NCBI GenBank assembly: GCA_016794035.1
Contig: JAEUHS010000020.1
Coordinates: 1-64,000, forward strand
Source: Planctomycetota bacterium
GTDB lineage: Bacteria; Planctomycetota; UBA1135; UBA2386
Direction: 5' to 3'
Length of the DNA: 64,000 bases
Shown one piece after another: positions 8,894 through 56,410 of this stretch. Position 1 is the stretch's first letter. The number at the start of each line of letters is the position of its first letter. Both the position numbers and the translations under genes were made by a program. Below the pieces are notes generated by a model. That model made no database searches. It saw only the letters and a program-made list of their open reading frames with translations, and was not told the origin of the DNA.

Positions 8894-9121
8894 TCACGCC
8901 TTCGGCTTGGGCGGCGGCAAGTCGCGCGCGGGACAGCTCGACTGGAAGCCCTTGCGCGCGTGCTGGCCGTCGCAGAACGGCTTGTTCTCCGACAGGCCGC
9001 AGCGGCACAGCGAGACCACGCTGCGGCCGGCGAGGCCGAACGCCTTGCCGCTCGCGTCGAGGATCTTGAGGTCGCCTTCGAGCCGCAGGGGCCCGTTGTC
9101 GTGCACGGTGACTTTGTTCAT
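8894..9121 (-). CDS. CDGSH-type [2Fe-2S] protein
   Basis: The 75-residue protein carries the exact CDGSH cluster ligand pattern: C39, C41, C50 and H54 in CRCGLSENKPFCDGQH. This binds a [2Fe-2S] cluster with three cysteines and one histidine. There is one motif and no membrane anchor, so it is a soluble single-domain CDGSH protein, probably an electron or cluster transfer factor. It stands convergent to the glycan operon with 15 bases between, and 33 bases downstream of the SDR gene on the same strand. Confidence 0.92.
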   Translation of the reverse strand: MNKVTVHDNGPLRLEGDLKILDASGKAFGLAGRSVVSLCRCGLSENKPFCDGQHARKGFQSSCPARDLPPPKPKA

Positions 9122-9154: not shown

Positions 9155-10171
9155 TCAGCGAACCAGGAAGTTGCGGCCGCTGCGCACCCGGTCGCGCCAG
9201 TACTCGAGCAGGTCGTACATCGTCTGCTCGAACGGGATCTGCGGCGCCCAGCCGGTGTGCGCGCGGAACTTCGACGTGTCCGGGATCTGCAGGTCGGCGT
9301 CGATCGGCCGCAACCGCTCGGGATCGGTGACCACCTCGATGTCGTCGCGCGTCGACAGCGACAGCAGGTGCCGCAGCATGTCGCCGACGGTGCACGAGAA
9401 CGAGCCGCCGATGTTGTAGTAGGCGCCCGGCACCGGGTCCTTGGTGACCAGCAGGTGGTAGGCGCGCACGGCGTCGCGCACGTCGGCCCAGGTGCGCATC
9501 GAGTCGAGGTTGCCGGTCTTCAGCACCGGCGCGATGCGGCCCTCCTCGATCAGCGCGATCTGCTTGGCGAACGTCGACTCGGCGAACACGTCGCCGCGGC
9601 GCGGGCCGGTGTGCGTGAACATGCGCGTCGTCATCACGCACATGCCGTAGGCCTCGGCGTAGAACCGGCCGAGCAGGTCGGTGCCGACCTTGCTGATCGC
9701 GTACGGCGACGCCGGGTGGAACGGCGTGTCCTCGCCGATCGGCAAGTACTGCCTGGGCACGCGACCGAACACCTCCGACGACGCGCAGACGTGCACGACC
9801 GGCTGTCGGCCGGCGTGATGGATCGCTTCGAGCAGCGCCGCGGTGCCGAGGATGTTGGTCTGCAGCGTCTCGATCGGTGCCGAGAAGCTGGTCTGCGGGT
9901 AGCTCTGCGCCGCCAGGTGGAACACGTAGTCCGGCCGCGTGGCGGCGATCGCGCGCTCGAGCGACGGATGGTCGTTGAGGTCGCCGTAGACGAGGCCGAC
10001 GCGGTCCTTGTCGTTGATGCGCGGCAGCAGGTGGTCGACGTTCGTCAGGTCGTCGTTCCAGCGCAGCAGGCCGTGGATCTCCCAGTCGCTGTGCGCGAGC
10101 AGGTGGTCGGCGAGGTGGCTGCCGACCATGCCGGTGAAGCCGGTGATCAGGCAGCTAGGACGACGGGACAT
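9155..10171 (-). CDS. SDR sugar-nucleotide enzyme, GDP-mannose 4,6-dehydratase/4-reductase type
   Basis: The 338-residue extended short-chain dehydrogenase has the NAD(P) motif GFTGMVGSHL near residue 10, the pair SSEVFG and the catalytic YAISK. It also has GPRRGDVF and KTGNLDSMRTWADVRDAVRAY, which match the GDP-sugar branch (Gmd and Rmd). It would act on a GDP-hexose or GDP-heptose at C4/C6. The start overlaps the end of the RmlC-type gene by 17 bases, so the two are coupled. Whether it is a dehydratase or a reductase is unclear, because its substrate-site segments mix features of both. Confidence 0.8.
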   Translation of the reverse strand: MSRRPSCLITGFTGMVGSHLADHLLAHSDWEIHGLLRWNDDLTNVDHLLPRINDKDRVGLVYGDLNDHPSLERAIAATRPDYVFHLAAQSYPQTSFSAPIETLQTNILGTAALLEAIHHAGRQPVVHVCASSEVFGRVPRQYLPIGEDTPFHPASPYAISKVGTDLLGRFYAEAYGMCVMTTRMFTHTGPRRGDVFAESTFAKQIALIEEGRIAPVLKTGNLDSMRTWADVRDAVRAYHLLVTKDPVPGAYYNIGGSFSCTVGDMLRHLLSLSTRDDIEVVTDPERLRPIDADLQIPDTSKFRAHTGWAPQIPFEQTMYDLLEYWRDRVRSGRNFLVR

Positions 10172-10676
10172 AGCTCCCCTGCGCGTCGCGAGCCGACAGG
10201 ATCGGGCCCTCGGTCGGCCATTCGAAGCCCCACTCGGGGTCGTCCCAGCGGATCGTGAACTGCCGGCCCGGCGCCCAGTGCTGGTCCTGCTTGTACCAGT
10301 AGACCAGCGGCCCCTGCACCGCGAACACCGAGTTGCCGATGCCCGGCGGGATCAGCAGCTGGTGGTGGCTGTCGCCGTCGAGCGTGAACGCCTGCCAGCG
10401 GCGATAGGTCGGTGACGCCGGTCGGTTGTCGGCGAGGATCGCGTAACCGATGCCGCTGAGCACGCTGACCAGCTTGGTGGTCTGCCAGTCGCCGTGCAGC
10501 CCGCGCAGCACGTCCTGGTGCGAGATCGAGATGTCGTCCTGGACGAACTCGATGCCAGCGCACAGCTCGCGGTACTTCGCGGCGTCGAAGATCTCGACAT
10601 AGCTGCCGCGGTGGTCGGTGAAGATCTCGGGCTCGATCCGGCGGACGCCGTGCAGTTCGGTGTCGACGACGCGCAT
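10155..10676 (-). CDS. RmlC-type 3,5-epimerase of a keto-sugar nucleotide
   Basis: The 173-residue protein fits the RmlC cupin: FTDHRGSYVEIF, ISHQDVLRGLHGD with the catalytic-type histidine, KLVSVLSG and HHQLLIPPGIGNSVFAV. RmlC enzymes epimerise C3 and/or C5 of a 4-keto-6-deoxy sugar nucleotide. The gene sits directly upstream of, and overlaps, the GDP-sugar SDR, so a GDP-4-keto-6-deoxy sugar is the likely substrate rather than dTDP-glucose; no RmlA or RmlB gene is in the window. MlghB-type epimerases of GDP-6-deoxyheptose pathways belong to this same family. Confidence 0.8.
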   Translation of the reverse strand: MRVVDTELHGVRRIEPEIFTDHRGSYVEIFDAAKYRELCAGIEFVQDDISISHQDVLRGLHGDWQTTKLVSVLSGIGYAILADNRPASPTYRRWQAFTLDGDSHHQLLIPPGIGNSVFAVQGPLVYWYKQDQHWAPGRQFTIRWDDPEWGFEWPTEGPILSARDAQGSYVPSS

Positions 10677-14900: not shown

Positions 14901-17444
14901 CTACCGCGCCGACGCCGCCAACGCGGGCGATGGCACCCGTGCCTCGTAGACGGCGAGCACGTCGCCGACGAACGCGCCGAGCCCGCGCGGCGGCGCGATC
15001 GCGCGCTGCATGCGCCCGAGCAACCGCGGGTCGTCGCGGAACGAGCGCAGCCGCGCCGCGAGCGCCGCGGCGTCCCCCGCCGCGAACAACCAGCCGGTGC
15101 GCCCGTGCTCGACGAAGTCGGGGATGCCGCCGATGCGGCTGCCGAGCACCGGGCAGCGCGCCGCCAGCGCCTCGGCGACCACGTAAGGTGCACAGTCGTC
15201 CCAGACCGACGGCACGACGACGACGTCGACCGCAGCCAGCAGCTCGGGCAGTGCCGCCGGCGCGTAGCCGCCGTGGAAGTGCACGCGCCCCGCGACGTCG
15301 AGCTGCCGCAACTGCGCCAGATAGCCGGGCTCCTGGTCGCCGAGCACCACACACACGGCGCTGCGCTCGGGCAGCAGCTGCAGCGCCTGCACCAGCACGT
15401 GCACGCCCTTGTGCGGCAGCACCGAACCGAAGAATCCGACGCGCAGTGGCCGCTGCAGCTCGGCGACGATCTCGCGCCGGCCGCCGGCGCGCTGCCAGAT
15501 CGCTTCGACCTGCGGCGGCTCCTGCCGCAGCACGCGCACGTGCGCCGGGTCGTCGCCGTTCTGCACGTGCAGGTCGCGCACGCGCGTCGACACCGCCAGG
15601 TGCACGTCGATGTCCTCGCGCAGCATGCGGATGCCCTCGCGCCGCCGTTCGGCGTGCGCCGCCGCCGCCGCCGGTGCGCCGACGCACGACGCACACCTGG
15701 CGCCGTCGGCGCTGCCGCCCGCGCAGCGCTGCAGCCGGTCGTCGATCAGGTACAAGCGCGCGCAGATCGACCAGTAGTTGTTCGAGCTGAGCACGGTCGG
15801 GATGCCGCGCTGCCGGCATGCGCCGGGCAGCGACATGCCGAGGTTGTGCAGGTTCCAGAAGTGCACGACGTCGGGCCGCAGCTCGTCGAGCAGGTCGGCG
15901 AACACCGCGCGTATCGCGGGATCGTCGACCTCGCGTCCGGGATGCTGCAGGTCGCGGAACAGCGCCGGCCGGTTGACCAGCCCGAACAGCGCGACCTCGC
16001 CTTCGCGATGGCGGCGCACGCCGTACGCCGGCAGGTCCGGCTCGGGCCGGGCCGCCGCGTAGAGCACCGAGACGCGCACACCCTGACGCGCGAGCTCGGC
16101 GGCGAACGCGCGCGGCAGCATCGTGCCACCGCCGCTGTCGGCCCAGCCGTACATCACCAGCAGCACGTGCCGCACCGCCGGCGGCCGGCTCGGCAGCGGC
16201 AGCGACCACACCTTGTCGATGCGCGGCGCCGCGGCCTCGATCGGCGCCCCGTCGGCGCCGGCGAACGTCTGCCACGGCACCTGCTGGTGGCTCGCCGACC
16301 ACCGCAGTTCGTCGCCGTCGCGCACCAGGCCGCGCGCCGCCCGGCTGTCGCGCACGACCGCGTGGTCCAGCTCGACGAAGCCCAGCTGCTGCAGCCGCGG
16401 TCGCTGGCCCGCGGCCTGCGCGCGCGCCAGCAGTTCGCCGTTGCCGCGTAACGGGCCGCGTTCGCCTGCCAGCGCCCAGGCGCGCCGCGCGGCGTCGGTC
16501 GCGCCGGCGCACGCGAGCACGTTGCCGCTGTTGACGGCGAACGCCTGCCGTACCCGCGCCACCTCGTCGCCGACCACCGGCTCCCCGACCGCGCGCTGGT
16601 AGCAGTGCAGCGCCAGTTCGCCGTCGGTGTAGGGGCCGAGCGCGCACAGGTTGCCGAGTTCGACCCACGCGGCCGCGCGCGCGAACGGCAGATCGTGCCG
16701 CGCCAGCGCCGGGAACACCTCGTCGAGCGTCCAGCTGGTGCGGTGTCGTCGCAGCACCGCCAGCACGTCGGCCAGCGTCGCCGCGCGATTGTCCGCCCCG
16801 CTCTGGCTGTCCGGTCGCATCAGGAACAGGCCCAGCGCCTCGCGCACGTGCACGGCCGAGAACCGGCGCGCGATGCGCAGGAACATGTCGTGGTCGTTGG
16901 CGAACGGATGTGCTTCGTCCCAGTGGCCCACCACGTCGTGCGCGGCGCGGCGCCACACCGCCTGCGCACCGAACAGGCAGTGCGACAGCGCCGTGGCCGG
17001 CGTGTAGTCGGGCCACGAGTAGCGCCGGGACGCCGTGTGCACCTGCCAGGTCTCGTTGTCGCGATGCGTGATCAGCGAGTCGGCGTAGGCGAGGCCGATG
17101 TCGGCGTGCCGTTCGAGCGCGGCCACCATGCGGGCGCCGAACTCGGGATGGTGCCGGTCGTCGGTGTTGGCGGTCGTCAGGTAGCGGCCGCGCGCCATCG
17201 CGGTCGCGCGGCGGAACGCCGCCGACGTCGACTCGCGCCCGGGAGTGCGCACGTAGCGCAGGTTCGGCGCGCGCTGCTGGTAGGCGCGCACCAGCTCGCC
17301 TTCGCGTTCGGGCGAGCCGGCATCGACGACGACGATCTCGAGCCGCTCGCCGAGCGACTGCTGCAGCAGGTCGTCGAGACAGCCGGCCAGGTAGCGTTCA
17401 CTGGCGTAGGTCGAGACCATCGCCGTGAGCAGCGGCGCGCTCAT
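14901..17444 (-). CDS. GT2–GT4 fusion glycosyltransferase
   Basis: The 847-residue protein starts at the ATG that overlaps the radical SAM stop codon (ATGA). Residues 1–230 are a GT2 domain: LLTAMVSTYASERYLAGCLDDLL, LEIVVVDAGS and a TANTDDRHHPEF segment in the place of the metal-binding DxD. A helical linker follows. Residues about 390–840 are a GT4 domain with LVMYGWADSGGGTMLP, LRVGFFGSVLPHKGVHVL, VVVPSVWDDCAPYVVAEALA and GGIPDFVEHGRTGWLF. Two sugars could be added in series by one polypeptide. It is the last gene of the heptose operon and is followed by two hairpins. Confidence 0.85.
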   Translation of the reverse strand: MSAPLLTAMVSTYASERYLAGCLDDLLQQSLGERLEIVVVDAGSPEREGELVRAYQQRAPNLRYVRTPGRESTSAAFRRATAMARGRYLTTANTDDRHHPEFGARMVAALERHADIGLAYADSLITHRDNETWQVHTASRRYSWPDYTPATALSHCLFGAQAVWRRAAHDVVGHWDEAHPFANDHDMFLRIARRFSAVHVREALGLFLMRPDSQSGADNRAATLADVLAVLRRHRTSWTLDEVFPALARHDLPFARAAAWVELGNLCALGPYTDGELALHCYQRAVGEPVVGDEVARVRQAFAVNSGNVLACAGATDAARRAWALAGERGPLRGNGELLARAQAAGQRPRLQQLGFVELDHAVVRDSRAARGLVRDGDELRWSASHQQVPWQTFAGADGAPIEAAAPRIDKVWSLPLPSRPPAVRHVLLVMYGWADSGGGTMLPRAFAAELARQGVRVSVLYAAARPEPDLPAYGVRRHREGEVALFGLVNRPALFRDLQHPGREVDDPAIRAVFADLLDELRPDVVHFWNLHNLGMSLPGACRQRGIPTVLSSNNYWSICARLYLIDDRLQRCAGGSADGARCASCVGAPAAAAAHAERRREGIRMLREDIDVHLAVSTRVRDLHVQNGDDPAHVRVLRQEPPQVEAIWQRAGGRREIVAELQRPLRVGFFGSVLPHKGVHVLVQALQLLPERSAVCVVLGDQEPGYLAQLRQLDVAGRVHFHGGYAPAALPELLAAVDVVVVPSVWDDCAPYVVAEALAARCPVLGSRIGGIPDFVEHGRTGWLFAAGDAAALAARLRSFRDDPRLLGRMQRAIAPPRGLGAFVGDVLAVYEARVPSPALAASAR

Positions 17445-18985
17445 CGCGCCGGCTCCGGCTCCACCGGCGTCGCGGCGTGGGCGCGCGGCAGCGGCTGTGC
17501 GACCATGCGCGCGACCTCGGCCGCGGCCCGCTCGCCGAACGTGCGCCGCACGAGCTGCCGGTACTCGTCGCGGTCGAAGTACTCGAGGAACGCCGCGTCG
17601 CGGAACGCCAGCACCTCGCCCCCGGACAGGTGCCTGGTCGGCAGCGGCAGGCAGTCCCGGCTGTGCTGCGAGTAACCCGACCACTTCGCGGGCAGCGGCC
17701 AGCCGCGCGCGATCGCGTCGCGATACAGCTGCGAACCCGGGTAGGCCATCGCCGAGAAGAAGTTCGCGAACTCGGTGTTCAGCTGCTTGGCGAAGTCGAG
17801 CGTCAGCCGCATCGAGGCCAGGTCGTCGTCGGGCAGACCGAACATGTAGTTGCCCATCACGTGGATGCCGCTCCGTTGCACCATGCCGATCGCCTTGCCG
17901 ATCGCCTCGGGCCGGTAGCCCTTGTCGACGCCGGCGCGCACGCTCTCGCTGGCCGACTCGATGCCAACCGCCAGCCAGCGCACGCCGGCCGCCCGCATGC
18001 GGTCCATCAGCTCCTGGTCGCGGCAGGTGTCGACCCGTGCGTAGGCCCAGATGTTGAGGTCGGCGCGCAGCGCGGCGAGGCCGTCGCAGATGCGGCCGAC
18101 GTGGTCGCGGTGCAGCAGGAACAGCTCGTCGGCGATCTTGAGGTTCTGCACGCCGTGCTCGGCCACCAGGTGCGCGACCTGCGTCACCACGTGGTCCGGG
18201 TCGAAGCGGCGGTAGCTGTTCTTGCTCGGATCGAGCCCGGCCGCGGCCTCGCCGCTCTTGAACGGCGCCTGGATGCAGCAGAACGTGCAAGTGAACGGGC
18301 AGCCGAGCGTCGTGTAGAGCGCGGCGTAGGGCTCGCGCCTGTCGCGGCCGAAGCAGTGCCAGTTGTGCGCGCGGTAGCGGTCCATCGGCAGCAGGTCCCA
18401 CGCCACGCCCGGCATCTCGCCGGGCAGGTCGCGCAGGATCGGCGCGGCGGCGTTGTGCTGCACCTCGTCCCCGTCCCACCACCACAGGCCGCGCACCTTC
18501 GACAACTCGGGCCGCGCCACGCCGGCCGCCAGCGCGCCCAGCAGTTCGTCGATCGTGATCGGACCCTCGCCGCCGCAGACGAAGTCGACCTTCTCCTCGC
18601 GCAGCGTGCGCTCGGGCAGCGCCGCCACGTGGCCACCCAGCAGCATCACGCGCCGCTCGGGCACGTGCGCAGCGAGCGCGTCGCAGATGTCGGTCGCGCC
18701 CGGCATCGCGAACGTCGACGCGTTCGGGTTGTGGCCGTAGACCACGACCACGGTCAGCAGCGGCCGCAGCACCGCCGTGTGCACCGCGACCTCCTCCGGG
18801 CTCAGGTCGAGCGCGTTGGCGTCGAGGATCGCGACCGAGCGGCCGCGCCGCCGTGCGTGCGTGGCCAGCAGACCCGCCCAGATCGGCGGCTCCTTGGCGG
18901 CCAGGTCGGCGCCGAGGTTCTGGTAGATGCGCCGGCGCCCGCCCGGGTTCACCAGCAGCAGGTCGATACCGTGCTCAGCGGCCAT
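17441..18985 (-). CDS. B12-binding-domain radical SAM protein
   Basis: The 514-residue enzyme has a cobalamin-binding-like N-terminal domain (LLLVNPGG, ADLAAKEPPIWAGLLATHAR, LLGGHVAALPE). The radical SAM core carries the CxxxCxxC cluster site GCPFTCTFC near residue 230, and later MGNYMFGLPDDD. Family members methylate or rearrange unreactive carbons, often in lipids, antibiotics or hopanoids. The cobalamin DxHxxG motif is not clear, so B12 binding is uncertain. The ATG at 18985 lies inside the end of the E1 beta gene (11-base overlap), and the stop overlaps the GT2–GT4 start. A role in modifying the glycan or its lipid carrier is inferred. Confidence 0.8.
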   Translation of the reverse strand: MAAEHGIDLLLVNPGGRRRIYQNLGADLAAKEPPIWAGLLATHARRRGRSVAILDANALDLSPEEVAVHTAVLRPLLTVVVVYGHNPNASTFAMPGATDICDALAAHVPERRVMLLGGHVAALPERTLREEKVDFVCGGEGPITIDELLGALAAGVARPELSKVRGLWWWDGDEVQHNAAAPILRDLPGEMPGVAWDLLPMDRYRAHNWHCFGRDRREPYAALYTTLGCPFTCTFCCIQAPFKSGEAAAGLDPSKNSYRRFDPDHVVTQVAHLVAEHGVQNLKIADELFLLHRDHVGRICDGLAALRADLNIWAYARVDTCRDQELMDRMRAAGVRWLAVGIESASESVRAGVDKGYRPEAIGKAIGMVQRSGIHVMGNYMFGLPDDDLASMRLTLDFAKQLNTEFANFFSAMAYPGSQLYRDAIARGWPLPAKWSGYSQHSRDCLPLPTRHLSGGEVLAFRDAAFLEYFDRDEYRQLVRRTFGERAAAEVARMVAQPLPRAHAATPVEPEPAR

Positions 18986-20024
18986 GGCCACCGCCCACGA
19001 GCAGGTCGTCGGCCACCGGCGCGCCGTCCAGCAGGTTCTGCATCGCCGCCGCGAGCCGCTCCGGCGTCGGGTAGTACGCGCGCTCGAGGATGCCGCTCGC
19101 CGGCATGCCGCGGTCCGGGAAGCAGATGCGCACCGGCGCCTGCCGCAGCGCGCCGTGGGCCCGCTCCGCCACCTGGGCGCACACCTCGGCCGCGAAACCG
19201 CCGAACGGGAAGTCGTAGTCGACGACCAGCAGCCGGCCGGTGCGCCGCACCGACGCCACGATCGTGTCGATGTCCAGCGGCTTGATCGTGCGCGGGTCGA
19301 GCAGGTCGACGTCGAGCCCGTTGCCCTCGCAGGCCAGGCGCGCATGCACCGCGGCCAGCGACGCGGCGACGACCGTCAGGCCCTCGCCGGCGTGCAGCCG
19401 CTGGCACTTGCCGAACGGCAGCGTGTAGATCGCCTCGGGCACGTCGCCGGTGTTCTTGTAGAGCCAGCGGTGTTCGAGGAACAGCACCGGCGAGTCGTCG
19501 GCGACGGACGCCAGGAACAGGCCCTTGACGTCGTACGGCGTCGACGGCATCACGACCTTGAGCCCCGGCACCTGCGCGAACAGGCCGTGCAGCGCCTGGC
19601 TGTGCTGCGCGCCGCAGCCCCAGCCGCGGCCGATGATCGAGCGGATCACCAGCGGCACCCGGACCTGCCGGTCGAACATGTCCTCCCACTTGGCGACGTA
19701 GTTGACGATCTGGTCCATCGCCACCAGCAGGAAGTCGTTGCGCAGGTGCACGTGGATCGGCCGCAGCCCGCTGAGCGCGGCGCCCAGCGCGACGCCGGTC
19801 ATCGCGTTCTCGGCGATCGGCGTGCCGAGCACGCGCTCGGGATGCGACAGGTTCGCCATCGAGCCGAACACGCCGAACTTGTCGTCGGCGTCGAGGCCGA
19901 TCGCGAACACGCGCGGGTCGTGCCCCATCGCCTGGTCGATCGCCTCGCGCACGGCGGCGCAGTAGCTGATCGTGCGGCCGCCGGTCGGCGCGGCGTAGTC
20001 CTGCTGGAACTTGCTCCACGGCAT
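18975..20024 (-). CDS. TPP-dependent E1 beta subunit, pyruvate/acetoin dehydrogenase type
   Basis: The 349-residue protein resembles E1 beta: YCAAVREAIDQAM, GTPIAENAMTGVALGAALSGLRPI, MDQIVNYVAKW, then VMPSTPYDVKGLF and the C-terminal LDPRTIKPLD. It starts 3 bases after the alpha gene stops, and together they would form an alpha2beta2 thiamine-diphosphate enzyme. No lipoyl acyltransferase (E2) or lipoamide dehydrogenase (E3) gene is near, and both neighbours are sugar genes. It may therefore transfer a two- or three-carbon unit in sugar biosynthesis rather than belong to a central dehydrogenase complex. Confidence 0.82.
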   Translation of the reverse strand: MPWSKFQQDYAAPTGGRTISYCAAVREAIDQAMGHDPRVFAIGLDADDKFGVFGSMANLSHPERVLGTPIAENAMTGVALGAALSGLRPIHVHLRNDFLLVAMDQIVNYVAKWEDMFDRQVRVPLVIRSIIGRGWGCGAQHSQALHGLFAQVPGLKVVMPSTPYDVKGLFLASVADDSPVLFLEHRWLYKNTGDVPEAIYTLPFGKCQRLHAGEGLTVVAASLAAVHARLACEGNGLDVDLLDPRTIKPLDIDTIVASVRRTGRLLVVDYDFPFGGFAAEVCAQVAERAHGALRQAPVRICFPDRGMPASGILERAYYPTPERLAAAMQNLLDGAPVADDLLVGGGHGR

Positions 20025-20027
20025 GGC

Positions 20028-20975
20028 TCAGGCCTCCAGCAATTCAGGGGTGGGGAACGGGGACGCCTCGGCGAACGCGATCGCGGCGTCGATCTCGGCC
20101 TCGATCGCGCGCTCGATCGCCGCGCATTCGTCGGCGCGGACCATGCCGCTGCGGGTGGCGAACGCCTCCAGCTTGACGATCGGGCAGTCGCGCGCCGGAT
20201 CGACGGCGTTCTCCGGCAGGTCGCAGCGGTCTGGACCCTGGTGCTTCATCCATCGCTTCGTGCGGCAGTGCAGCAGCATCGGGCCGTTGCCGGCGCGGAC
20301 GTGCTGCACCGCGGCGCCGGCGCGATCGAACACCGACAGCACGTCGGTGCCGTCGGCCTGCAGCACCGGCAGGAAGCGTTCGGCGACGCTGGTGATGTCG
20401 TGCGCCGAGTGCGCGCTCTTCGGCATCACGTTCGACCAGCCGTTGTCCTCGCACAGGAACAGCACCGGCAGCTTGCGCAGCGCGGCGAAGTTCAGGCTCT
20501 CGTAGAACACGCCGGCGTTGGTCGCCGCGTCGCCGAAGTACGACACGCCGAGGAAGCCGCCGCCGGTCAGCGACGAGGCGAGGGCGGCGCCGACGCCCAG
20601 CGCGATGCTGCCACCGACGATCGCCGACGAACCGGGCAGGCCGTGCTCGGTGTCGATCAGGTGCATCGAGCCGCCGAACGCGTGCGAGCAGCCGCTGGTG
20701 CGGCCGTACAGCTCCGCCATCAGCTTGGGCAGCGGCAGCCCCTTGGCGAGCGCCGGGCCGTGCGTGCGATGGCCGAGGAACAGCTTGTCGCGGTCGGTCA
20801 GGTGGCGGCACAGGCCGACCGACACGGCCTCCTGGCCGATGCACAGGTGCACCGGCGTCTCCATGACGTCGGTCGCATAGAGCTTCGCGATGCGCTCGCT
20901 GGTCTGGCGGATCAGGCGCATGCGCCGCAGCATCCAGAGCACGGCTTCACGATCGATGGTGTGGGTTCGCTGCAT
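20028..20975 (-). CDS. TPP-dependent E1 alpha subunit
   Basis: The 315-residue protein follows E1 alpha of the 2-oxo-acid dehydrogenases: residues about 40–55 METPVHLCIGQEAVSVG, RTHGPALAKGLPL, the SGCSHAFGGSMHL loop, and the TPP site YFGDAATNAGVFYESLN at about 147–162. The usual GDG of the TPP motif reads GDA. ATG 20975 was chosen; it lies 2 bases after the stop of the heptose kinase gene. The subunit is short for its family and lacks the extended phosphorylation loops of eukaryotic types. It pairs with the beta gene immediately downstream. Confidence 0.83.
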   Translation of the reverse strand: MQRTHTIDREAVLWMLRRMRLIRQTSERIAKLYATDVMETPVHLCIGQEAVSVGLCRHLTDRDKLFLGHRTHGPALAKGLPLPKLMAELYGRTSGCSHAFGGSMHLIDTEHGLPGSSAIVGGSIALGVGAALASSLTGGGFLGVSYFGDAATNAGVFYESLNFAALRKLPVLFLCEDNGWSNVMPKSAHSAHDITSVAERFLPVLQADGTDVLSVFDRAGAAVQHVRAGNGPMLLHCRTKRWMKHQGPDRCDLPENAVDPARDCPIVKLEAFATRSGMVRADECAAIERAIEAEIDAAIAFAEASPFPTPELLEA

Positions 20976-20977
20976 GG

Positions 20978-22102
20978 TCAGGCCTTGCCGGGCACGGCCG
21001 GCGCCTCGTCGTGCGGGTACGGGATCGCCCAGGAGTCCGGACCCGGCACCTGGTCGGTGTCGCGGAAGGCGGCGATCGGCCGGCCCTCGCGCGCGGCTTC
21101 GACCGACGAGAAGTCCTCCTCGCGGTCGTAGAAGATGATCTGGCTGCCCGACGACTCGAACCGGAACGGCACCTGGACCAGTTCCGGCAGCGCCGCCGCG
21201 ACCTCGGCCTGGCGTTCCGGCGGCACGAACAGCAGCAGGAAGCCGCCGCCGCCGGCACCGGTGATCTTGCCGCCGATCGCGCCCGCAGCCCGCGCCCGCG
21301 CGTAGACCTGGTCGACCTCGTCGGTCGAGATGCCGGCGGCGAGGCTGCGCTTGTGGCTCCACGCCTCGTCGAGCAGTTCGCCGAAGCCTTCGATCGAGCG
21401 TTCGCTGGCCAGCAGCTCGATGCTCTCGTCGACGAGGTCGCGCAGGATGCGCAGCTGGCGGCGCTTCTTCGGCAGGTCGGTCACGTAGCTCGCGGCCACG
21501 CGCGACGCCGTGCGCACGATGCCGGTGTAGAACAGCATCAGGTGGTCGTCGAGTTCCTCGGTGCGACCGGGCCGCAGCACCACCGGCGTCACCACGATCT
21601 GCCCGGTCGGCGCGAAGGTGATCTTGTTGAACCCGCCGAACGCCGCGGCGACCTGGTCCTGGGACCCGACGGTCTCGCGCAGCAGCACCTGCTCGGCGTG
21701 CATGGCCTCGCTCATCAGCTCCCGCTTGCCGACCATGCGGCCCTGCAGCGCGTGCAGCGCGTGCAGCAGCCCGACGGTGAAGGCGCTGCTCGAGCCCATG
21801 CCGCTGCGCGCCGGCAGGTCACCGACATGGTGCACCTCGACGCCGCGCTCGATGCCGAGGTGGCCGAGCAGACAGCGCACGACCGGGTGCTCGATCTCGG
21901 CGAGCGTGCGGCAGTTCTCGACCTTCGACCAGACCACGCGGTAGCGGTAGTCGAAGAACGGCGGCAGGTAGCGGCAGCTCAGGTAGCAGTACTTGTCGAT
22001 CGTCGTCGACAGCACCGCGCCCCCGTGCGCCAGGTACCACTCGGGGTAGTCGGTGCCGCCGCCGAAGAACGAGATCCGGAACGGCGTGCGGCTGAGGATC
22101 AC
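20978..22102 (-). CDS. hddA: GHMP kinase, heptose 7-phosphate kinase type
   Basis: The 374-residue protein starts at a GTG that overlaps the HddC–GmhB stop codon. It carries the GHMP signatures: SRTPFRISFFGGGTDYPEWY at the N-terminus, the ATP loop PARSGMGSSSAFTVG at about 98–112, and the C-terminal GGKITGAGGGGFLLLF. The N-terminal GGGTDYPEWY form is typical of D-glycero-alpha-D-manno-heptose 7-phosphate kinase (HddA), which makes the 1,7-bisphosphate. The following gene product would remove the 7-phosphate and add GDP, so the neighbourhood supports this call over fucose or galactose kinase. Confidence 0.83.
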   Translation of the reverse strand: MILSRTPFRISFFGGGTDYPEWYLAHGGAVLSTTIDKYCYLSCRYLPPFFDYRYRVVWSKVENCRTLAEIEHPVVRCLLGHLGIERGVEVHHVGDLPARSGMGSSSAFTVGLLHALHALQGRMVGKRELMSEAMHAEQVLLRETVGSQDQVAAAFGGFNKITFAPTGQIVVTPVVLRPGRTEELDDHLMLFYTGIVRTASRVAASYVTDLPKKRRQLRILRDLVDESIELLASERSIEGFGELLDEAWSHKRSLAAGISTDEVDQVYARARAAGAIGGKITGAGGGGFLLLFVPPERQAEVAAALPELVQVPFRFESSGSQIIFYDREEDFSSVEAAREGRPIAAFRDTDQVPGPDSWAIPYPHDEAPAVPGKA

Positions 22103-23412
22103 GGGCGCACCTCGTCGCGGGCGTCGTGCCGGGCGAGTTCGTGCAGCGAGTCGACGATCAGGTCCGGCGCACACAGGCCGTCGCGCTCGGTGCCGGCGCC
22201 GTAGCCGGTGCGCACCAGCGCGGTGCGCACGCCGAGGCGCGTGCCGAGCTCGATGTCGCAGGCCTTGTCGCCGACCACCAGGCACTGTTCGCGCGCGTAG
22301 CCGAGCTGCTGCATCGCGGTCACGAGCAGCAGCGGCTCGGGCTTGCGACACGCACAGGCGTCGTCGGGGTGGTGTGGGCAGTGCCAGATGCCGTCGAGCG
22401 TGATGCCGGCCGCCGCGAGCTGCCGCCGCAGCTCGGCGTGCACGGCAGCGAGGGTCTGCTCGTCGAAGTAGCCGCGGCCGATGCCGGACTGGTTGGTGAC
22501 GACGGCGATCCGGTAGCCGCGGGCGGCGAACGCGCGCAGGCCGTCGACGACCCCGGGCAGCAACTGCACCGCCGCCGGATCGGCCAGGTAGTTGCGTTCG
22601 TCGATCAGCGTGCCGTCGCGGTCGACGACCAGCAGACCGCCGCGCGGCCGGCGGCGGCGACGCGCACAGGCGGCGAAGAACGCGCTCGCGGCCGCGTAGT
22701 CGGCCGGCACGCCGATGTCGAGGAACGGCGCCTCGGTGCAGAACGCGCGCAGCCCAATCGGCAGCAGTTCCGGCAGCACCTGGCGTTCCAGCGACACGGT
22801 GTGCTGCGGCGGCAGCAGCGCCAGCACGCGCGCCGGCAGCCAGTAGATGCCGGCGTTGATCCACGCCGCGCCGGCGGCGGACTTCTCGCCGAACGCCTGC
22901 ACGCGGCCGGCGGTGTCGATCGTCAGCGCGCCGAAGCGCGATGCGTCGTCGCTGCGCGCGGCGACCAGCGCCGGCTCGACGGCGCGCTCGCGCGCCCAGG
23001 CCACGAACCCGGCGAGGTCGAGATCGCAGAACGAGTCGCCGTTGACGACCAGTGCCGCCGGCTCGCGCAGCAGCGGCAGCGCGAGGCGCAGCGCCCCGGC
23101 GGTGCCGAGCGGCGACGGCTCGCGCGAGTACTCCAGCACGATGCCGGCGTGCTCGCGGCCGAGTTCGCGTTCGATCTGCTCGCCCAGGTGGCCGGTGCAC
23201 AGGATCGCGCGGCGGCAGCCGGCGGCGGCCAGCTGGTCGAGCAGCCGCAGCAGGAACGGCTCGCCGTCGATCGGCGCCAGCGCCTTCGGCCGGTCGGCGA
23301 CGCAGGTCGCGAGCCGGGTGCCGAGCCCCCCCGCCAGCACCATCGCCGTGAACCCGGGCGTGGCCGTGGCCTCCCCCGTTCGCTGCGCCGTTCGGTTTCG
23401 ATCCTCTGCCAT
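22099..23412 (-). CDS. Fused heptose-1-phosphate nucleotidyltransferase and heptose bisphosphate phosphatase
   Basis: The 437-residue protein joins two enzymes. Residues about 20–250 are a nucleotidyltransferase: MVLAGGLGTRL, a KALAPIDGEPFLL active site and VVNGDSF, matching HddC. Residues about 258–437 are a HAD phosphatase of the GmhB type: VVDRDGTLIDERN, VTNQSGIGRGYF, the zinc loop CPHHPDDACACRKPEP and VVGDKACDIELG. Together they would dephosphorylate heptose 1,7-bisphosphate and make GDP-heptose. ATG 23412 was chosen as the first good start; in-frame ATGs further up add a low-complexity leader. The gene's stop overlaps the hddA start. Confidence 0.85.
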   Translation of the reverse strand: MAEDRNRTAQRTGEATATPGFTAMVLAGGLGTRLATCVADRPKALAPIDGEPFLLRLLDQLAAAGCRRAILCTGHLGEQIERELGREHAGIVLEYSREPSPLGTAGALRLALPLLREPAALVVNGDSFCDLDLAGFVAWARERAVEPALVAARSDDASRFGALTIDTAGRVQAFGEKSAAGAAWINAGIYWLPARVLALLPPQHTVSLERQVLPELLPIGLRAFCTEAPFLDIGVPADYAAASAFFAACARRRRRPRGGLLVVDRDGTLIDERNYLADPAAVQLLPGVVDGLRAFAARGYRIAVVTNQSGIGRGYFDEQTLAAVHAELRRQLAAAGITLDGIWHCPHHPDDACACRKPEPLLLVTAMQQLGYAREQCLVVGDKACDIELGTRLGVRTALVRTGYGAGTERDGLCAPDLIVDSLHELARHDARDEVRP

Positions 23413-23492
23413 GCCGCGACCCGCGACCCCGTCCGGGGCCGCTGCCATCGGGCTATCGGGCCCGCTGGCGCCGCGACTTGAACCCGCCGCGG

Positions 23493-24452
23493 TCAGCGCG
23501 CCAGCAGACGCTGCAGCAGCGGCAGCGGCAGGTTGCCGCCGCAGACGACGATCGCCGCGCGCCGGCCCGCGGGCGGCGCGTCCTGCCGGCAGCCGGCCAC
23601 GGCGACCGCGGCGGCGCCCTCGACCAGCAGGTGCTGTTCGCCGAGCATCGCCAGCAGCGCATGCTCGATCGCCGGCTCGTCGACGTCGACGAAGCGGTCG
23701 ATCAGCTGCTGGCAGAGCGGGAACGTGAGCGCACCGGGCTCGACGCCGCCGGCCGTGCTGTCGGACCAGGTCGGCTCGCACGGCACGTCGACGATGCGCC
23801 CCTGTCGCACGCACGCGGCCATCGCCGCCGAGGCCGACGGCGAGCAGGCGACGAACTCGATGGCCGGCCGCACCGACCTGGCGTACGCCGCCATGCCGCC
23901 GATCAGGCCGCCGCCGCCCAGCGCCACGTAGACGACCTCGACGTCCGGCCATTGCGCGAGCAGTTCGACGGCGACGGTGCCCTGGCCGGCGACGACGTCG
24001 GCGTCGTTGTACGGCGACACGTAGTGCCGCCCGGTCGCGGCGGCGACCTCGCGCGCGTGCCGCTCGGTGTCGACACAGTCGGCGCCGAAGCGCTCGACGC
24101 TCGCGCCGGCACGTTCGATCGCCGCGACCTTGCCGGCCGGCGTCGACTCGGGCACGAACACCGCCGCCGCGAGCTGCAGCTGCGCGGCCGCCGTGGCGAC
24201 GCCGAGGCCGTGGTTGCCGGACGAGGCGCAGACGACCCCGTGCCGGCGCTGCGCCGGCGACAGCCGCAGCAGCGCGTGCAGCGCCCCGCGCAGCTTGAAC
24301 GAGCCGGTGCGCTGCACGTTCTCGAGCTTCAGCCGCACGTCCGCGCCGGTCGCCGCCGACAACCATGGGCACGGCACCACCGGCGTGCGCACCACCAGGT
24401 CACCGAGCCGGCGCGCGGCCGCCATCACCTCGTGCGCCAGGGACGCGGACAT
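23493..24452 (-). CDS. Threonine/serine dehydratase-like PLP enzyme, short form
   Basis: The 319-residue fold-type II PLP enzyme has the Schiff-base lysine K53 in GSFKLRGA, the phosphate-side SSGNHG at 77–82 and the glycine loop GGGGLIGG. This matches catabolic threonine dehydratase (TdcB-like), which makes 2-oxobutanoate and ammonia. The C-terminal ACT regulatory domain of biosynthetic IlvA is missing. The gene lies 10 bases after the secreted-protein gene and 80 bases ahead of the heptose genes. Serine racemase-like or other activities remain possible. Confidence 0.8.
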   Translation of the reverse strand: MSASLAHEVMAAARRLGDLVVRTPVVPCPWLSAATGADVRLKLENVQRTGSFKLRGALHALLRLSPAQRRHGVVCASSGNHGLGVATAAAQLQLAAAVFVPESTPAGKVAAIERAGASVERFGADCVDTERHAREVAAATGRHYVSPYNDADVVAGQGTVAVELLAQWPDVEVVYVALGGGGLIGGMAAYARSVRPAIEFVACSPSASAAMAACVRQGRIVDVPCEPTWSDSTAGGVEPGALTFPLCQQLIDRFVDVDEPAIEHALLAMLGEQHLLVEGAAAVAVAGCRQDAPPAGRRAAIVVCGGNLPLPLLQRLLAR

Positions 24453-52544: not shown

Positions 52545-52835
52545 TCAGCGCGCGTGGCCGGCGACGACCGGGGCACGCTCGCGCCAGGTGATCTGCAGCG
52601 ACAGCGAGTGGTCGCCGCGGCGCAGGTCGATCGTCAGCTCGCGGTCTCGCAGCTGCTCGACGAACGTGCGCAGCCATGACTCTGCGGCGCGACGCGGCGC
52701 CGCGCCGTCGGGGGCGGCGACGACCGCGGGTCCGGCCGTCGCGACGGTCGCGGCCTGCACGTCTCCCTGCCAGATCGCGAAGCCGCTGACGGCGGCGACG
52801 AGCAGGGTGACGGCGACGGCCATGCGCTGGTTCAC
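52545..52835 (-). CDS. Small single-pass membrane protein coupled to the 2-oxoglutarate enzyme gene
   Basis: The 96-residue protein starts at a GTG that overlaps the upstream stop codon (GTGA); an ATG follows at 52823. One hydrophobic segment (VAVTLLVAAVSGFAIW) is followed by a soluble part with RAAESWLRTFVEQLRDRELTIDLRRG. The family is not recognised. The coupling to the 2-oxoglutarate enzyme gene is strong, but nothing in the sequence gives the role. Confidence 0.6.
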   Translation of the reverse strand: MNQRMAVAVTLLVAAVSGFAIWQGDVQAATVATAGPAVVAAPDGAAPRRAAESWLRTFVEQLRDRELTIDLRRGDHSLSLQITWRERAPVVAGHAR

Positions 52836-55800
52836 GGCGTCGCCTTGCCGAGCGCCTCGGCGGTCAGAGCCTGTTGTTCGGCCTTGTGCTTCTGCAGCGA
52901 ACCGGTGGCCGGACTCGCGGCGGCACGGCGCATCGCGCTGCCCGACCACGGCAAGCGGTCGCGCACGAACGTCCACGCGCCCATGTTCGCCGGCTCCTCC
53001 TGGCACCACACGAACGCCGCCTTGCCATAGCGCCGGCGCAGCGCCTGCATCGCCGAGGCCGGCCACGGATACAGCAGTTCGAGCCGCACCAGCGCCACGG
53101 TCCGGTCGTCGCCGCGCGCGTCGAGCAGGTCGTAGTAGACCTTGCCCGAGCAGCAGACGACGCGGCGCACGGCGCCGGGCTCGCGCACGGTGACGTCGTC
53201 CTGCACCGGCCGGAACACACCCTCGGCGAGTTCTTCGGGCCGGCTGCCGGCCTCCTTCTGCCGCAGCAGGCTCTTCGGCGTCATCACCACCAGCGGCTTC
53301 TTCTCCTGGTCCAGCGCCTGGGCGCGCAGCAGGTGGTAGTAGCTCGCCGCCGACGACGGATTGGCGACGCGCAGGTTGTTCTCGGCACACAGCTGCAGGA
53401 AGCGCTCGAGCCGCGCGCTGCTGTGCTCGGGACCCTGCCCGTCGTAGCCGTGCGGCAGCAGCAGCACCAGGCCCGAGGTCTGGGTCCATTTCGCCTCGCC
53501 GGCGGCGAGGAACTGGTCGATCTGGATCTGCGCGCCGTTGACGAAGTCGCCGAACTGCGCCTCCCACAGCACCAGCCCGTCGGTGGCCGCACAGCTGTAG
53601 CCGTACTCGAAGCCGAGCGCCGCCTCCTCGCTGAGCAGCGAATCGACGACCACGAACGGCGCCTGGCCGTCGGCGAGGTGGTTCAGCGGCACGTAGCGCC
53701 GGCCGTCGCTGGCGTCGTAGAGGGCCGCATGGCGCTGGCTGAAGGTGCCGCGCCCAGAGTCCTGGCCGGCGAGGCGCACCGGCACGCCGGCGACCAGCAG
53801 GCTGCCGAACGCGAGCGTCTCGGCGGTGGCGAAGTCGATCGGCTGCGTGCCGGCCAGCATGTCGGCGCGGCGCCCGAGCACGCCTTTGACCTTGGGATGC
53901 GGCGTCCAGTCCGCCGGCCAGTCGAGCAGGCGGGCGTTCCATTGCCGCAGCCGTTCGAGCGGCACCGGCCGTGGCTCGGGCGTCCATTCGCGATCGGCGG
54001 CCTCGGGCGGCAGCACGACGGGCGGCGGCTCGCTGGCGCGCACTTCGTCGAGCGACTGCTTGAGGCGCTGCTGCACCTTCTGGTCGTAGCCGGCGAGTTC
54101 GTCCTCGCGCAGCACGCCGGCCCGGATCAGGTAGTTCTGGTAGATCCGGCGCACGGTCGGATGGGCCTCGATCTGGCGATACAGCAGCGGCTGCGTGTAG
54201 CTCGGCTCGTCGCCCTCGTTGTGGCCGTGGCGACGGTAGCAGACGATGTCGAGCACGACGTCGCTGTGGAAGCGGGCCCGGTAGTCCATCGCCAGCCGGA
54301 TCATGCGCACCGCGGCCAGCGGATCGTCGCCGTTGACGTGGAAGATCGGCGCCTGCACGCCCTTGGCGACGTCGGTGCAGAACGGCGTGCTGCGCGAGTC
54401 CTGGGGCGACGTCGTGTAGCCGATCTGGTTGTTGACGACGACGTGCACGGTGCCGCCGGTGCGATAGCCGTGCAGCTGCGACATCTGCAGCGTCTCGTGC
54501 ACGACGCCCTGACCGGCGAACGCGGCGTCGCCGTGCACCAGGATCGGCAGCACCTGCGTCCACGCCGTGTGCTCGCTGTCCTGCGGCAGACGCTCCTGGC
54601 GCGCGCGCGCCATGCCTTCGACCACGGGATCCACCGCTTCGAGGTGGCTCGGATTGCAGGCCAGCTCGACGGCGACGCGGTGGCCGCTCGCGGTCTCGTA
54701 TTCGGCCGCGGCGCCGAGGTGGTACTTCACGTCGCCGGAGCCCTGCGTCATCGACGGATCGAGCCAGCCCTCGAACTCGCCGAAGATCTTCGTCAACGGC
54801 TTGCCGAGCACGTGCGCCAGCACGTTGAGGCGGCCGCGGTGGGCCATGCCGAGCACCGCGCGCTGCGCGCCCAGCTCGGCGGCCCGGTCGAGCAGCGCGT
54901 CGAGCACGGGGATCAGCGTGTCGCCCCCTTCGAGCGAGAAGCGCTTGTGGCCGACGAACCGCGTGTGCAGGAACTGCTCGAACGCCTCGGCCTCGACCAG
55001 CTTGTCGAGGATCTGCAGCTGCGCCTCCCGGCTGAGGCGCTCCTCGTTGCGGTTGCCCTCCATGCGCTCGCGCAGCCAGTGGCGCTGCTCCTGGTCGGCG
55101 ATGTGCATGAACTCGGCGCCGACGTGGCGGCAGTACGTGAGGTGCAGCACCTCCTGGATCTCCCGCAACGTCGCGAACGGCTTCTTGGTGACGCCGTCGC
55201 TGTAGAACGTGCGCTCCTTGTCCCACAGCGTCAGGCCGTAGGTCGACATGTCGAGCTCGGGCCAGTCGCCGCGCTCGGAGGCGCCGGACTCGCTCCGCAG
55301 CGGGTCGAGGTTGGCCAGCACGTGACCCCGCACGCGGTAGCTGCGGATGTAGGTCATCAGTCCGGCCGCGCGTTCGAGGTTCTCGGCCTCGCGCAGGCTG
55401 CTGCCGAGCGGTGGCCGGCGGTCGGCGCTGTGGCGCACCGGCCGGTACGGCACCTTCAGCGAGCGGAACACCTCGTCGTAGAAGCCCTCCTCGCCGAGCA
55501 GCAACCGGTGCATCCAGTCGAGGAACTGCCCCGACTCGGCGCCCTGGATCACGCGGTGGTCGTAGGTGCTGCTGACCACCATCGAGCGCGACACGCCGAG
55601 TTCGGTCAGCGTCTCCGGCGAAGCACCCTGGAACGCGGCCGGCACTGCGATCGCGCCGGTCGCCAGGATGAAGCTCTGTCCGGCCATCAGCCGCGGCAGC
55701 GAGCTGACGGTGCCGATCGTGCCCGGGTTGGTCAACGAGCAGGTCGTGCCGGCGAAGTCGTCGGGCGCGAGCGTGCCGGCGCGAGCCTTGTCGATCAGCT

Positions 55801-56410
55801 GCTGGAACGCCGCGAAGAAGCCGGCGAAGTCCAGCGACGCGCAGTCCTTGACGTTCGGCACGACGAGGCTGCGGCGGCCGTCCTTGCCGGGCAGGTCGAC
55901 GGCGATGCCGACGTTCCACGCGCGCCCGCGGCGGCGGAACGGCTTGCCGTCCTGCTCGACGAACTGACCGGCCATCGCCGGCACCCGCTGCATCGCGCGC
56001 ACCATCGCCCAGGCGATCAGGTGCGTGAAGCTCACCTTCGGCAGGTAGAGGCCCTGCTGGTGCCGGTTGATGGAGTGCCGGTTCTCCTCGAGCACCTTGA
56101 CCGGGATCTCGCGCGTCGACGTCGCCGTCGGCACCGAGAGGCTCTCGGTCATGTTCTTGACGATACGCCCGGCGACGCCGACGAGCGGCTGCAGGTCGGC
56201 GTCACCTTCGACGGCGGGTTCGGTCGCCGGCGCCACCTTGCGCGCCGGCCTCGCCACGGCGCTGGCCCGCTGCTCGGGCGGCAACGCCGTCTCGAACCAG
56301 CTGCGCCACTCCGTCGGCACCGACTCCGGTGCCTGCAGGTAGTCGCCGTAGACCTTCTCGGCGTAGGCGGCGTTGAGGCCGAACACTTCTTCGAAGTCGG
56401 GGCGGTGCAT
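52832..56410 (-). CDS. kgd: Multifunctional 2-oxoglutarate dehydrogenase/decarboxylase (E2-like plus E1)
   Basis: The 1192-residue protein joins an N-terminal region typical of E1o (FGLNAAYAEKVYGDYLQAP), an E2-type acyltransferase domain (about 80–330, with STYDHRVIQGAESG), and a full E1o core (about 370–1190, with AHRGRLNVLAHVLGKP, HGDAAFAGQGVVHETLQMS and VVVNNQIGYTTSP). This is the arrangement of actinobacterial KGD, which catalyses decarboxylation and acyl transfer but lacks its own lipoyl domain. It feeds the TCA cycle. No lipoamide dehydrogenase or lipoyl E2 is in the window. Confidence 0.9.
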   Translation of the reverse strand: MHRPDFEEVFGLNAAYAEKVYGDYLQAPESVPTEWRSWFETALPPEQRASAVARPARKVAPATEPAVEGDADLQPLVGVAGRIVKNMTESLSVPTATSTREIPVKVLEENRHSINRHQQGLYLPKVSFTHLIAWAMVRAMQRVPAMAGQFVEQDGKPFRRRGRAWNVGIAVDLPGKDGRRSLVVPNVKDCASLDFAGFFAAFQQLIDKARAGTLAPDDFAGTTCSLTNPGTIGTVSSLPRLMAGQSFILATGAIAVPAAFQGASPETLTELGVSRSMVVSSTYDHRVIQGAESGQFLDWMHRLLLGEEGFYDEVFRSLKVPYRPVRHSADRRPPLGSSLREAENLERAAGLMTYIRSYRVRGHVLANLDPLRSESGASERGDWPELDMSTYGLTLWDKERTFYSDGVTKKPFATLREIQEVLHLTYCRHVGAEFMHIADQEQRHWLRERMEGNRNEERLSREAQLQILDKLVEAEAFEQFLHTRFVGHKRFSLEGGDTLIPVLDALLDRAAELGAQRAVLGMAHRGRLNVLAHVLGKPLTKIFGEFEGWLDPSMTQGSGDVKYHLGAAAEYETASGHRVAVELACNPSHLEAVDPVVEGMARARQERLPQDSEHTAWTQVLPILVHGDAAFAGQGVVHETLQMSQLHGYRTGGTVHVVVNNQIGYTTSPQDSRSTPFCTDVAKGVQAPIFHVNGDDPLAAVRMIRLAMDYRARFHSDVVLDIVCYRRHGHNEGDEPSYTQPLLYRQIEAHPTVRRIYQNYLIRAGVLREDELAGYDQKVQQRLKQSLDEVRASEPPPVVLPPEAADREWTPEPRPVPLERLRQWNARLLDWPADWTPHPKVKGVLGRRADMLAGTQPIDFATAETLAFGSLLVAGVPVRLAGQDSGRGTFSQRHAALYDASDGRRYVPLNHLADGQAPFVVVDSLLSEEAALGFEYGYSCAATDGLVLWEAQFGDFVNGAQIQIDQFLAAGEAKWTQTSGLVLLLPHGYDGQGPEHSSARLERFLQLCAENNLRVANPSSAASYYHLLRAQALDQEKKPLVVMTPKSLLRQKEAGSRPEELAEGVFRPVQDDVTVREPGAVRRVVCCSGKVYYDLLDARGDDRTVALVRLELLYPWPASAMQALRRRYGKAAFVWCQEEPANMGAWTFVRDRLPWSGSAMRRAAASPATGSLQKHKAEQQALTAEALGKATP

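Follow-up and report, generated by a model that had tools for sequence, protein, structure and literature searches.

The closest described counterparts of the genes considered here are the E2-less pairs of E1α/E1β type (αKADH2) that branch keto-deoxysugars in actinomycete antibiotics, about 120 clusters being said to hold such genes (PMC12247030). They include AviB1/AviB2, Plm8/Plm9 (= Pau11/Pau12), the aldgamycin and kosinostatin pairs, and KbDH-α/β (PMC12247030; PMC4802897; PMC4753412). Feeding and knockout experiments identified pyruvate as the donor in aldgamycin biosynthesis, and KbDH-α/β takes cyclic ketones in vitro; structures of ketone-accepting αKADH2 enzymes have yet to be solved (PMC12247030). 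The two-carbon branch at C4 of paulomycose is assigned to Plm8/Plm9 and Pau11/Pau12 (PMC4802897; PMC4753412). For branched sugars of Gram-negative bacteria, the literature found describes YerE, not E1αβ. The locus described here lies in the first 64,000 nucleotides of contig JAEUHS010000020.1 from a Planctomycetota bacterium (assembly GCA_016794035.1; 4.83 Mb, 94% complete), a stretch hereafter called the window, in which genes for an E1α/E1β pair are embedded in a heptose operon.

The role that best fits this pair, with a probability we put at roughly 0.6, is that of an E2-independent carboligase dependent on thiamine diphosphate (ThDP), adding an acyl group to the C4 ketone of a guanosine diphosphate (GDP)-activated 6-deoxy-4-keto-heptose. 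A reading of the sequence without database searches (the original prediction) had suggested that the pair might work without E2 or E3 and attach a two- or three-carbon unit to a sugar. Phylogeny, genomic context and a lost motif in the loop on the lipoyl side lend that suggestion support at the sequence level, and the αKADH2 enzymes provide a precedent (PMC12247030; PMC4802897); the acceptor may be narrowed from a sugar in general to GDP-4-keto-6-deoxyheptose. By the gene calls for the window, E1α and E1β occupy places three and four in a run of six minus-strand genes, whose order is:

22099–23448, minus strand: fusion of an HddC-like heptose-1-phosphate nucleotidyltransferase and a GmhB-like 1,7-bisphosphate phosphatase of the HAD type
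20978–22102, minus strand: HddA-like kinase (best PDB matches 3k85, 4usk, 4n3o)
20028–20975, minus strand: E1-type alpha subunit of an E2-independent clade, 315 amino acids, ThDP/Mg-binding (PF00676, E 1.6e-49)
18975–20024, minus strand: E1-type beta subunit, 349 amino acids (PF02779 and PF02780, Transket_pyr and Transketolase_C)
17441–18985, minus strand: radical S-adenosylmethionine (SAM) protein with a B12-binding domain, a conserved operon partner (best PDB match 6fd2, AprD4)
14901–17444, minus strand: GT2-GT4 double glycosyltransferase, from domain matches

Spacing throughout the run consists of gaps of 2–3 bases or overlaps of 4–11 bases: the nucleotidyltransferase-HAD gene overlaps hddA by 4 bases, 2 bases separate the end of hddA from E1α and 3 the end of E1α from E1β, the radical SAM gene overlaps E1β by 11 bases, and the GT2-GT4 gene overlaps the radical SAM gene by 4. 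The coordinates of the pair, its adjacency to hddA and the 2–3-base spacing had been predicted exactly, as had its place in a heptose operon; the operon itself is longer than was then described, taking in the nucleotidyltransferase-HAD, radical SAM and GT2-GT4 genes. Among PDB sequences the kinase is nearest to heptose kinases; NCBIfam HddA is its top family match, yet the score falls under the family cut-off. The nucleotidyltransferase half of the fusion has its best PDB matches in 5xhw and 6jq8, from the 6-deoxy-D-manno-heptose pathway, and the HAD half in 4pnh, GmhB. The radical SAM protein gives weak NCBIfam matches to HpnJ, BchE and AprD4, the last with a modest score; the AprD4 family bears the name radical-SAM diol-dehydratase.

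The same core order is found in ten other planctomycete loci, with E1 identities of 54–90%: L015–L021, from a contig search (L019 and L021 end early, and L058 is the L016 locus), and L059–L061, from a phylum search. E1β matches at E ≤ 1e-70 occur in 21 of 392 sampled Planctomycetota genomes, and relatives within the clade described below also occur in Alphaproteobacteria and Desulfovibrionia; the viral contigs searched held no close relative of the pair. A cultivated bacterium with the operon or a relative of it is Solidesulfovibrio magneticus RS-1 (plasmid pDMC1). In the E1β matches of two planctomycete genomes, L036 (genome G386) and L052 (G306), the search counted one in-frame stop each (TAG, TGA). 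In a tree of 42 concatenated E1 pairs, the window pair stands apart from acetoin- and pyruvate-type E1s: it forms one clade with 28 others (100/100), within which the tree's ten operons of the window type make up a subclade (100/100). Outside the 29-member clade lie the acetoin-type pairs L080, L081 and L084, the genome's own other E1s, and all E2-linked pairs sampled, including L031 and L079.

Genomic context divides along the same line. In a fixed scan of the flanks of 30 loci from the clade and 14 from outside it, E2-like genes were found at 0/30 versus 7/14 (Fisher p 9e-5) and any sugar-nucleotide gene at 25/30 versus 0/14 (p 1e-7), p values that are descriptive, given the kinship among the loci, the choice of some of them by hand and a dehydratase class that takes in generic matches to short-chain dehydrogenases/reductases (SDRs). 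The commonest clade neighbor is a heptose-type kinase, at 18 of the 30 loci and none of the 14. Some clade members have other surroundings: L030 (Streptomyces griseofuscus pSGRIFU1) and L078 (S. albogriseolus pSALBX2) lie in seemingly non-sugar biosynthetic clusters and are the only two Streptomyces plasmid pairs in the clade, both unassigned; L062:1162–3297 stands beside several radical SAM genes, and the E1β of L063 (9012–10121) beside other genes without a heptose pathway.

No E2 gene lies near the pair, as had been predicted: the window's sole E2 forms part of a 2-oxoglutarate dehydrogenase 35 kb off, as a fused domain (55499–56197). A profile search of the contigs found five clear and two weak E1_dh loci in the assembly. 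The clear ones are the window pair, the fused 2-oxoglutarate dehydrogenase, a pyruvate dehydrogenase (PDH) operon on contig C108 (E1β C-terminus, E2, E1α, E3), a pair on C55 and, on C45, a fused protein; only C108 and the 2-oxoglutarate dehydrogenase contain E2 catalytic domains. The window pair is thus not the genome's only E1, and both subunits fail the NCBI pyruvate dehydrogenase cut-offs (α, 260 versus 394 bits; β, 240 versus 321). Three of these loci have features of their own. The 2-oxoglutarate dehydrogenase (52832–56410, minus strand) joins E1 to an N-terminal E2 catalytic domain (PF00198 at 55499–56197, PF00676 at 54023–54988), an OdhA/Kgd-like architecture in a planctomycete. At C55:8000–12520 (L085), lipA, E1α and E1β are consecutive, and the contig stops within E1β, so that an E2 could lie past its end. 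At about 18.4–20.7 kb of C45 (L087/L005), as at L025, a fused E1αβ-like protein (742–760 amino acids) stands beside an acyltransferase (FabD)-like open reading frame, a layout common to two planctomycetes.

Are the subunits themselves those of a working enzyme? In α, the positions that correspond to cofactor and catalytic residues of human E1 retain their residues and are invariant in the alignment (His43, Arg70, His72, Asp149, Asn178 and His245, window numbering); β preserves Glu in TPIAEN and His in AQHSQ, along with the clade motif IGRGWG-GAQHSQ. The original prediction drew attention to GDA in place of GDG in the ThDP motif, a change that is real (VSYFGDAATN) and minor. Window and nearest kin have GDA, the close relatives L059–L061 have GDG, and some other rows have GDA or GEA; judged from the alignment, this is a mild derived change. 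Loss of function was rejected as its meaning, since the Mg-binding Asp and the Asn ligand are kept, the position varies in relatives, and a rough NG86 estimate of dN/dS, about 0.2–0.4 versus L015, suggests purifying selection on the genes. Two other segments depart further from complex-forming E1s. Their GH(S/F)xxD segment in α, which in E1 structures adjoins the entry of the E2 lipoyl arm, is replaced in clade members by KHQGP or EHVGP, and GAG....AQHSQ in β has become mostly IG(R/K).WG..AQHSQ (INR in L054, L068 and L076). The rewritten α loop and β motif fit an acceptor other than lipoamide.

Genes that could make a suitable acceptor are found within and beyond the operon. Past the GT2-GT4 gene come opposite-strand genes and then, again on the operon's strand, an epimerase and a dehydratase; a third gene of possible relevance lies upstream:

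10155–10676, minus strand: RmlC-fold epimerase, nearest to the GDP-4-keto-heptose 3(,5)-epimerases of Campylobacter jejuni (best PDB match 7m14, also 8db5)
9155–10171, minus strand: GDP-D-glycero-D-manno-heptose 4,6-dehydratase, by homology (PDB 7us5, E 4e-106)
23493–24452, minus strand: threonine/serine dehydratase-like enzyme dependent on pyridoxal phosphate (PLP), from domain and NCBIfam matches

The 4,6-dehydratase scores 358 bits against 7us5 and 183 against the next PDB match; the epimerase has a small margin over RmlC proper. In L015, L018 and L058 the epimerase-dehydratase pair comes after the operon. Of the GDP-6-deoxy-heptose pathway, HddA, HddC, GmhB and the 4,6-dehydratase are represented among the window genes, by homology; GmhA is absent from the operon, and contig C99 encodes a candidate. 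The surroundings of the window operon showed no C4-reductase, which agrees with conversion of C4 to a tertiary alcohol. The threonine/serine dehydratase is a possible source of 2-oxo acid, probably outside the operon core; it was not adopted as a core donor-supplying gene, as it adjoins the operon of relatives only where an accBC-PFK block also does. A small CDGSH-type iron-sulfur protein gene (8894–9121, minus strand) lies 33 bases after the 4,6-dehydratase gene.

We infer the donor, acceptor, order of steps and product as follows. GmhA would isomerize sedoheptulose 7-phosphate, HddA would add a phosphate, the HAD domain would remove one, and the nucleotidyltransferase domain would activate the sugar as a GDP-heptose, which the 4,6-dehydratase would convert to a 4-keto sugar, possibly epimerized by the RmlC-like enzyme. 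E1αβ would then decarboxylate a 2-oxo acid, most likely pyruvate, to an acyl anion (probably acetyl) and add it at the C4 ketone; the resulting 4-C-acyl-branched heptose would carry a tertiary alcohol at that carbon. The radical SAM enzyme may modify the branched sugar further, and the glycosyltransferase would attach it to a surface glycan.

Relatives of the pair supply independent evidence and suggest a variant of this scheme. A DegT-family neighbor is present at 15 clade loci, and in 10 of these (L026, L027, L028, L067, L070, L071, L073, L074, L075, L082) it has His for the PLP-binding Lys, the signature of ColD/RfbH 3-dehydratases. In L074 the DegT gene, whose product has ColD as its best PDB match, sits between E1β and a gene for a dehydratase-like protein with 7us5 as top PDB match, barely above GDP-hexulose reductase (192 versus 191 bits). 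By analogy, the L074 gene set follows the yersiniose reaction order (4,6-dehydration, 3-dehydration, ThDP-dependent branching at C4) with E1αβ substituting for YerE. A wider proposal, to which we give slightly less than even odds, is that a widespread E2-independent E1αβ family does the work of YerE in surface-glycan loci of planctomycetes and proteobacteria, its products being 4-C-branched 6-deoxy- and 3,6-dideoxy-heptoses (branched nonoses), with the radical SAM protein modifying the same sugar in the window clade. The literature searched contained no report of branched nonoses of this type.

Several observations weigh against a carboligase acting on GDP-4-keto-heptose. In the window, dehydratase and epimerase are 4–5 kb from the operon with opposite-strand genes between, and in L059–L061 neither appeared over a distance of about 9 kb. 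A GDP-fucose-synthase-like SDR follows E1β in L059 and L061 and could reduce the C4 ketone; it might instead act on the ketone of the branch, the role that Pau7 has in paulomycin. No ColD-type (His) DegT protein was found in the window genome, where two of four DegT-family matches have a readable PLP-lysine motif and keep Lys; the acceptor proposed for the window accordingly keeps its C3 hydroxyl. The flanking loci scanned are few, related and partly chosen by hand, and five of the 30 clade loci, both Streptomyces plasmid clusters among them, are without a sugar-nucleotide gene, so the function of the clade may not be uniform. The likeness to αKADH2 is one of gene arrangement and predicted reaction; common descent with AviB1/B2, Plm8/9 and KbDH is no part of the claim.

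Some of these observations would suit a carboligase of the same clade with a non-heptose or non-sugar acceptor, the heptose genes serving another residue of the glycan: the plasmid clusters and L062 lack sugar-nucleotide genes, and the GDP-4-keto-heptose genes stand outside the window operon. Set against the sugar-nucleotide genes and heptose-type kinases so common in the clade, this seems rather improbable. Somewhat better placed, though still unlikely, is a sugar-pathway ThDP carboligase acting before activation, transferring a ketol or acyl unit onto an aldehyde or sugar phosphate to give a longer-chain sugar for the kinase and nucleotidyltransferase. E1β is related also to transketolase and DXS, GmhA is missing from the operon, and HddA/HddC homologues are able to handle C8 sugars in lincosamide biosynthesis; relatives' pairs, however, co-occur with enzymes making 4-keto or 3-deoxy-4-keto nucleotide sugars, and GmhA does accompany the pair in L028 and L029. 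Least probable is an ordinary 2-oxo acid dehydrogenase E1 that borrows E2 and E3 of the PDH complex in trans and is in the operon by chance. Fold and cofactor residues are alike and the genome does encode E2 and E3, but the pair belongs to a separate clade without nearby E2 genes, its lipoyl-side loop is changed, its operon is conserved with the heptose genes, and the genome has other E1 sets; shared use of the PDH E2 was rejected on phylogeny, context and the separate PDH operon.

Annotation pipelines label such genes as dehydrogenase-complex or transketolase subunits, inflating predicted central metabolism and hiding a likely carbon-carbon bond-forming step in glycan synthesis. If E1αβ does branch GDP-4-keto-heptoses, sugar branching of the αKADH2 type would extend from actinomycete antibiotics to the envelope polysaccharides of several phyla, branched heptoses should be detectable by nuclear magnetic resonance or mass spectrometry, and new ketone-accepting ThDP biocatalysts could be expected.

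The open-access literature searched contained no report of E1 pairs set among heptose, O-antigen or branched-sugar genes, subscription journals being mostly outside the search and absence therefore not proven. Pyruvate and acetoin dehydrogenase E1αβ, the best PDB matches, share fold, cofactor site and catalytic histidines with the window pair, which differs in its separate clade, the lack of an E2 partner gene, the loss of the α loop GHxxxD and the altered β motif. The GDP-6-deoxy- and GDP-3,6-dideoxy-heptose pathways of C. jejuni share hddA, hddC, the GDP-heptose 4,6-dehydratase, the RmlC-like epimerase and, in relatives of the window operon, the PLP C3-dehydratase, steps that take C. jejuni to GDP-6-deoxy-4-keto-heptose (PMC10440746; PMC10680097); Campylobacter ends with a C4-reductase, whereas the window operon has E1αβ and no such reductase was seen nearby. 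Yersiniose A biosynthesis resembles relatives such as L074 in combining, within a glycan locus, a 4,6-dehydratase, a 3-dehydratase and then a ThDP carboligase for C4 of an activated 4-keto sugar; YerE, however, belongs to the decarboxylase superfamily and is a ThDP-dependent flavoprotein made of a single chain, in contrast to the E1/transketolase-type α and β chains here, and the window operon lacks a 3-dehydratase. With the αKADH2 systems, for which transfer of a two-carbon pyruvate unit is proposed or shown, the pair shares its E1α/E1β type, the lack of E2/E3 and a nucleotide-sugar cluster making a keto-deoxysugar, the keto-sugar genes of the window being linked to the operon, not within it. 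The known systems make actinomycete antibiotic sugars, whereas here the neighbors are GDP-heptose, radical SAM and glycosyltransferase genes in Planctomycetota: what appears to be new is the predicted use, on heptoses in surface-glycan loci, of αKADH2-like chemistry known from actinomycete antibiotics.

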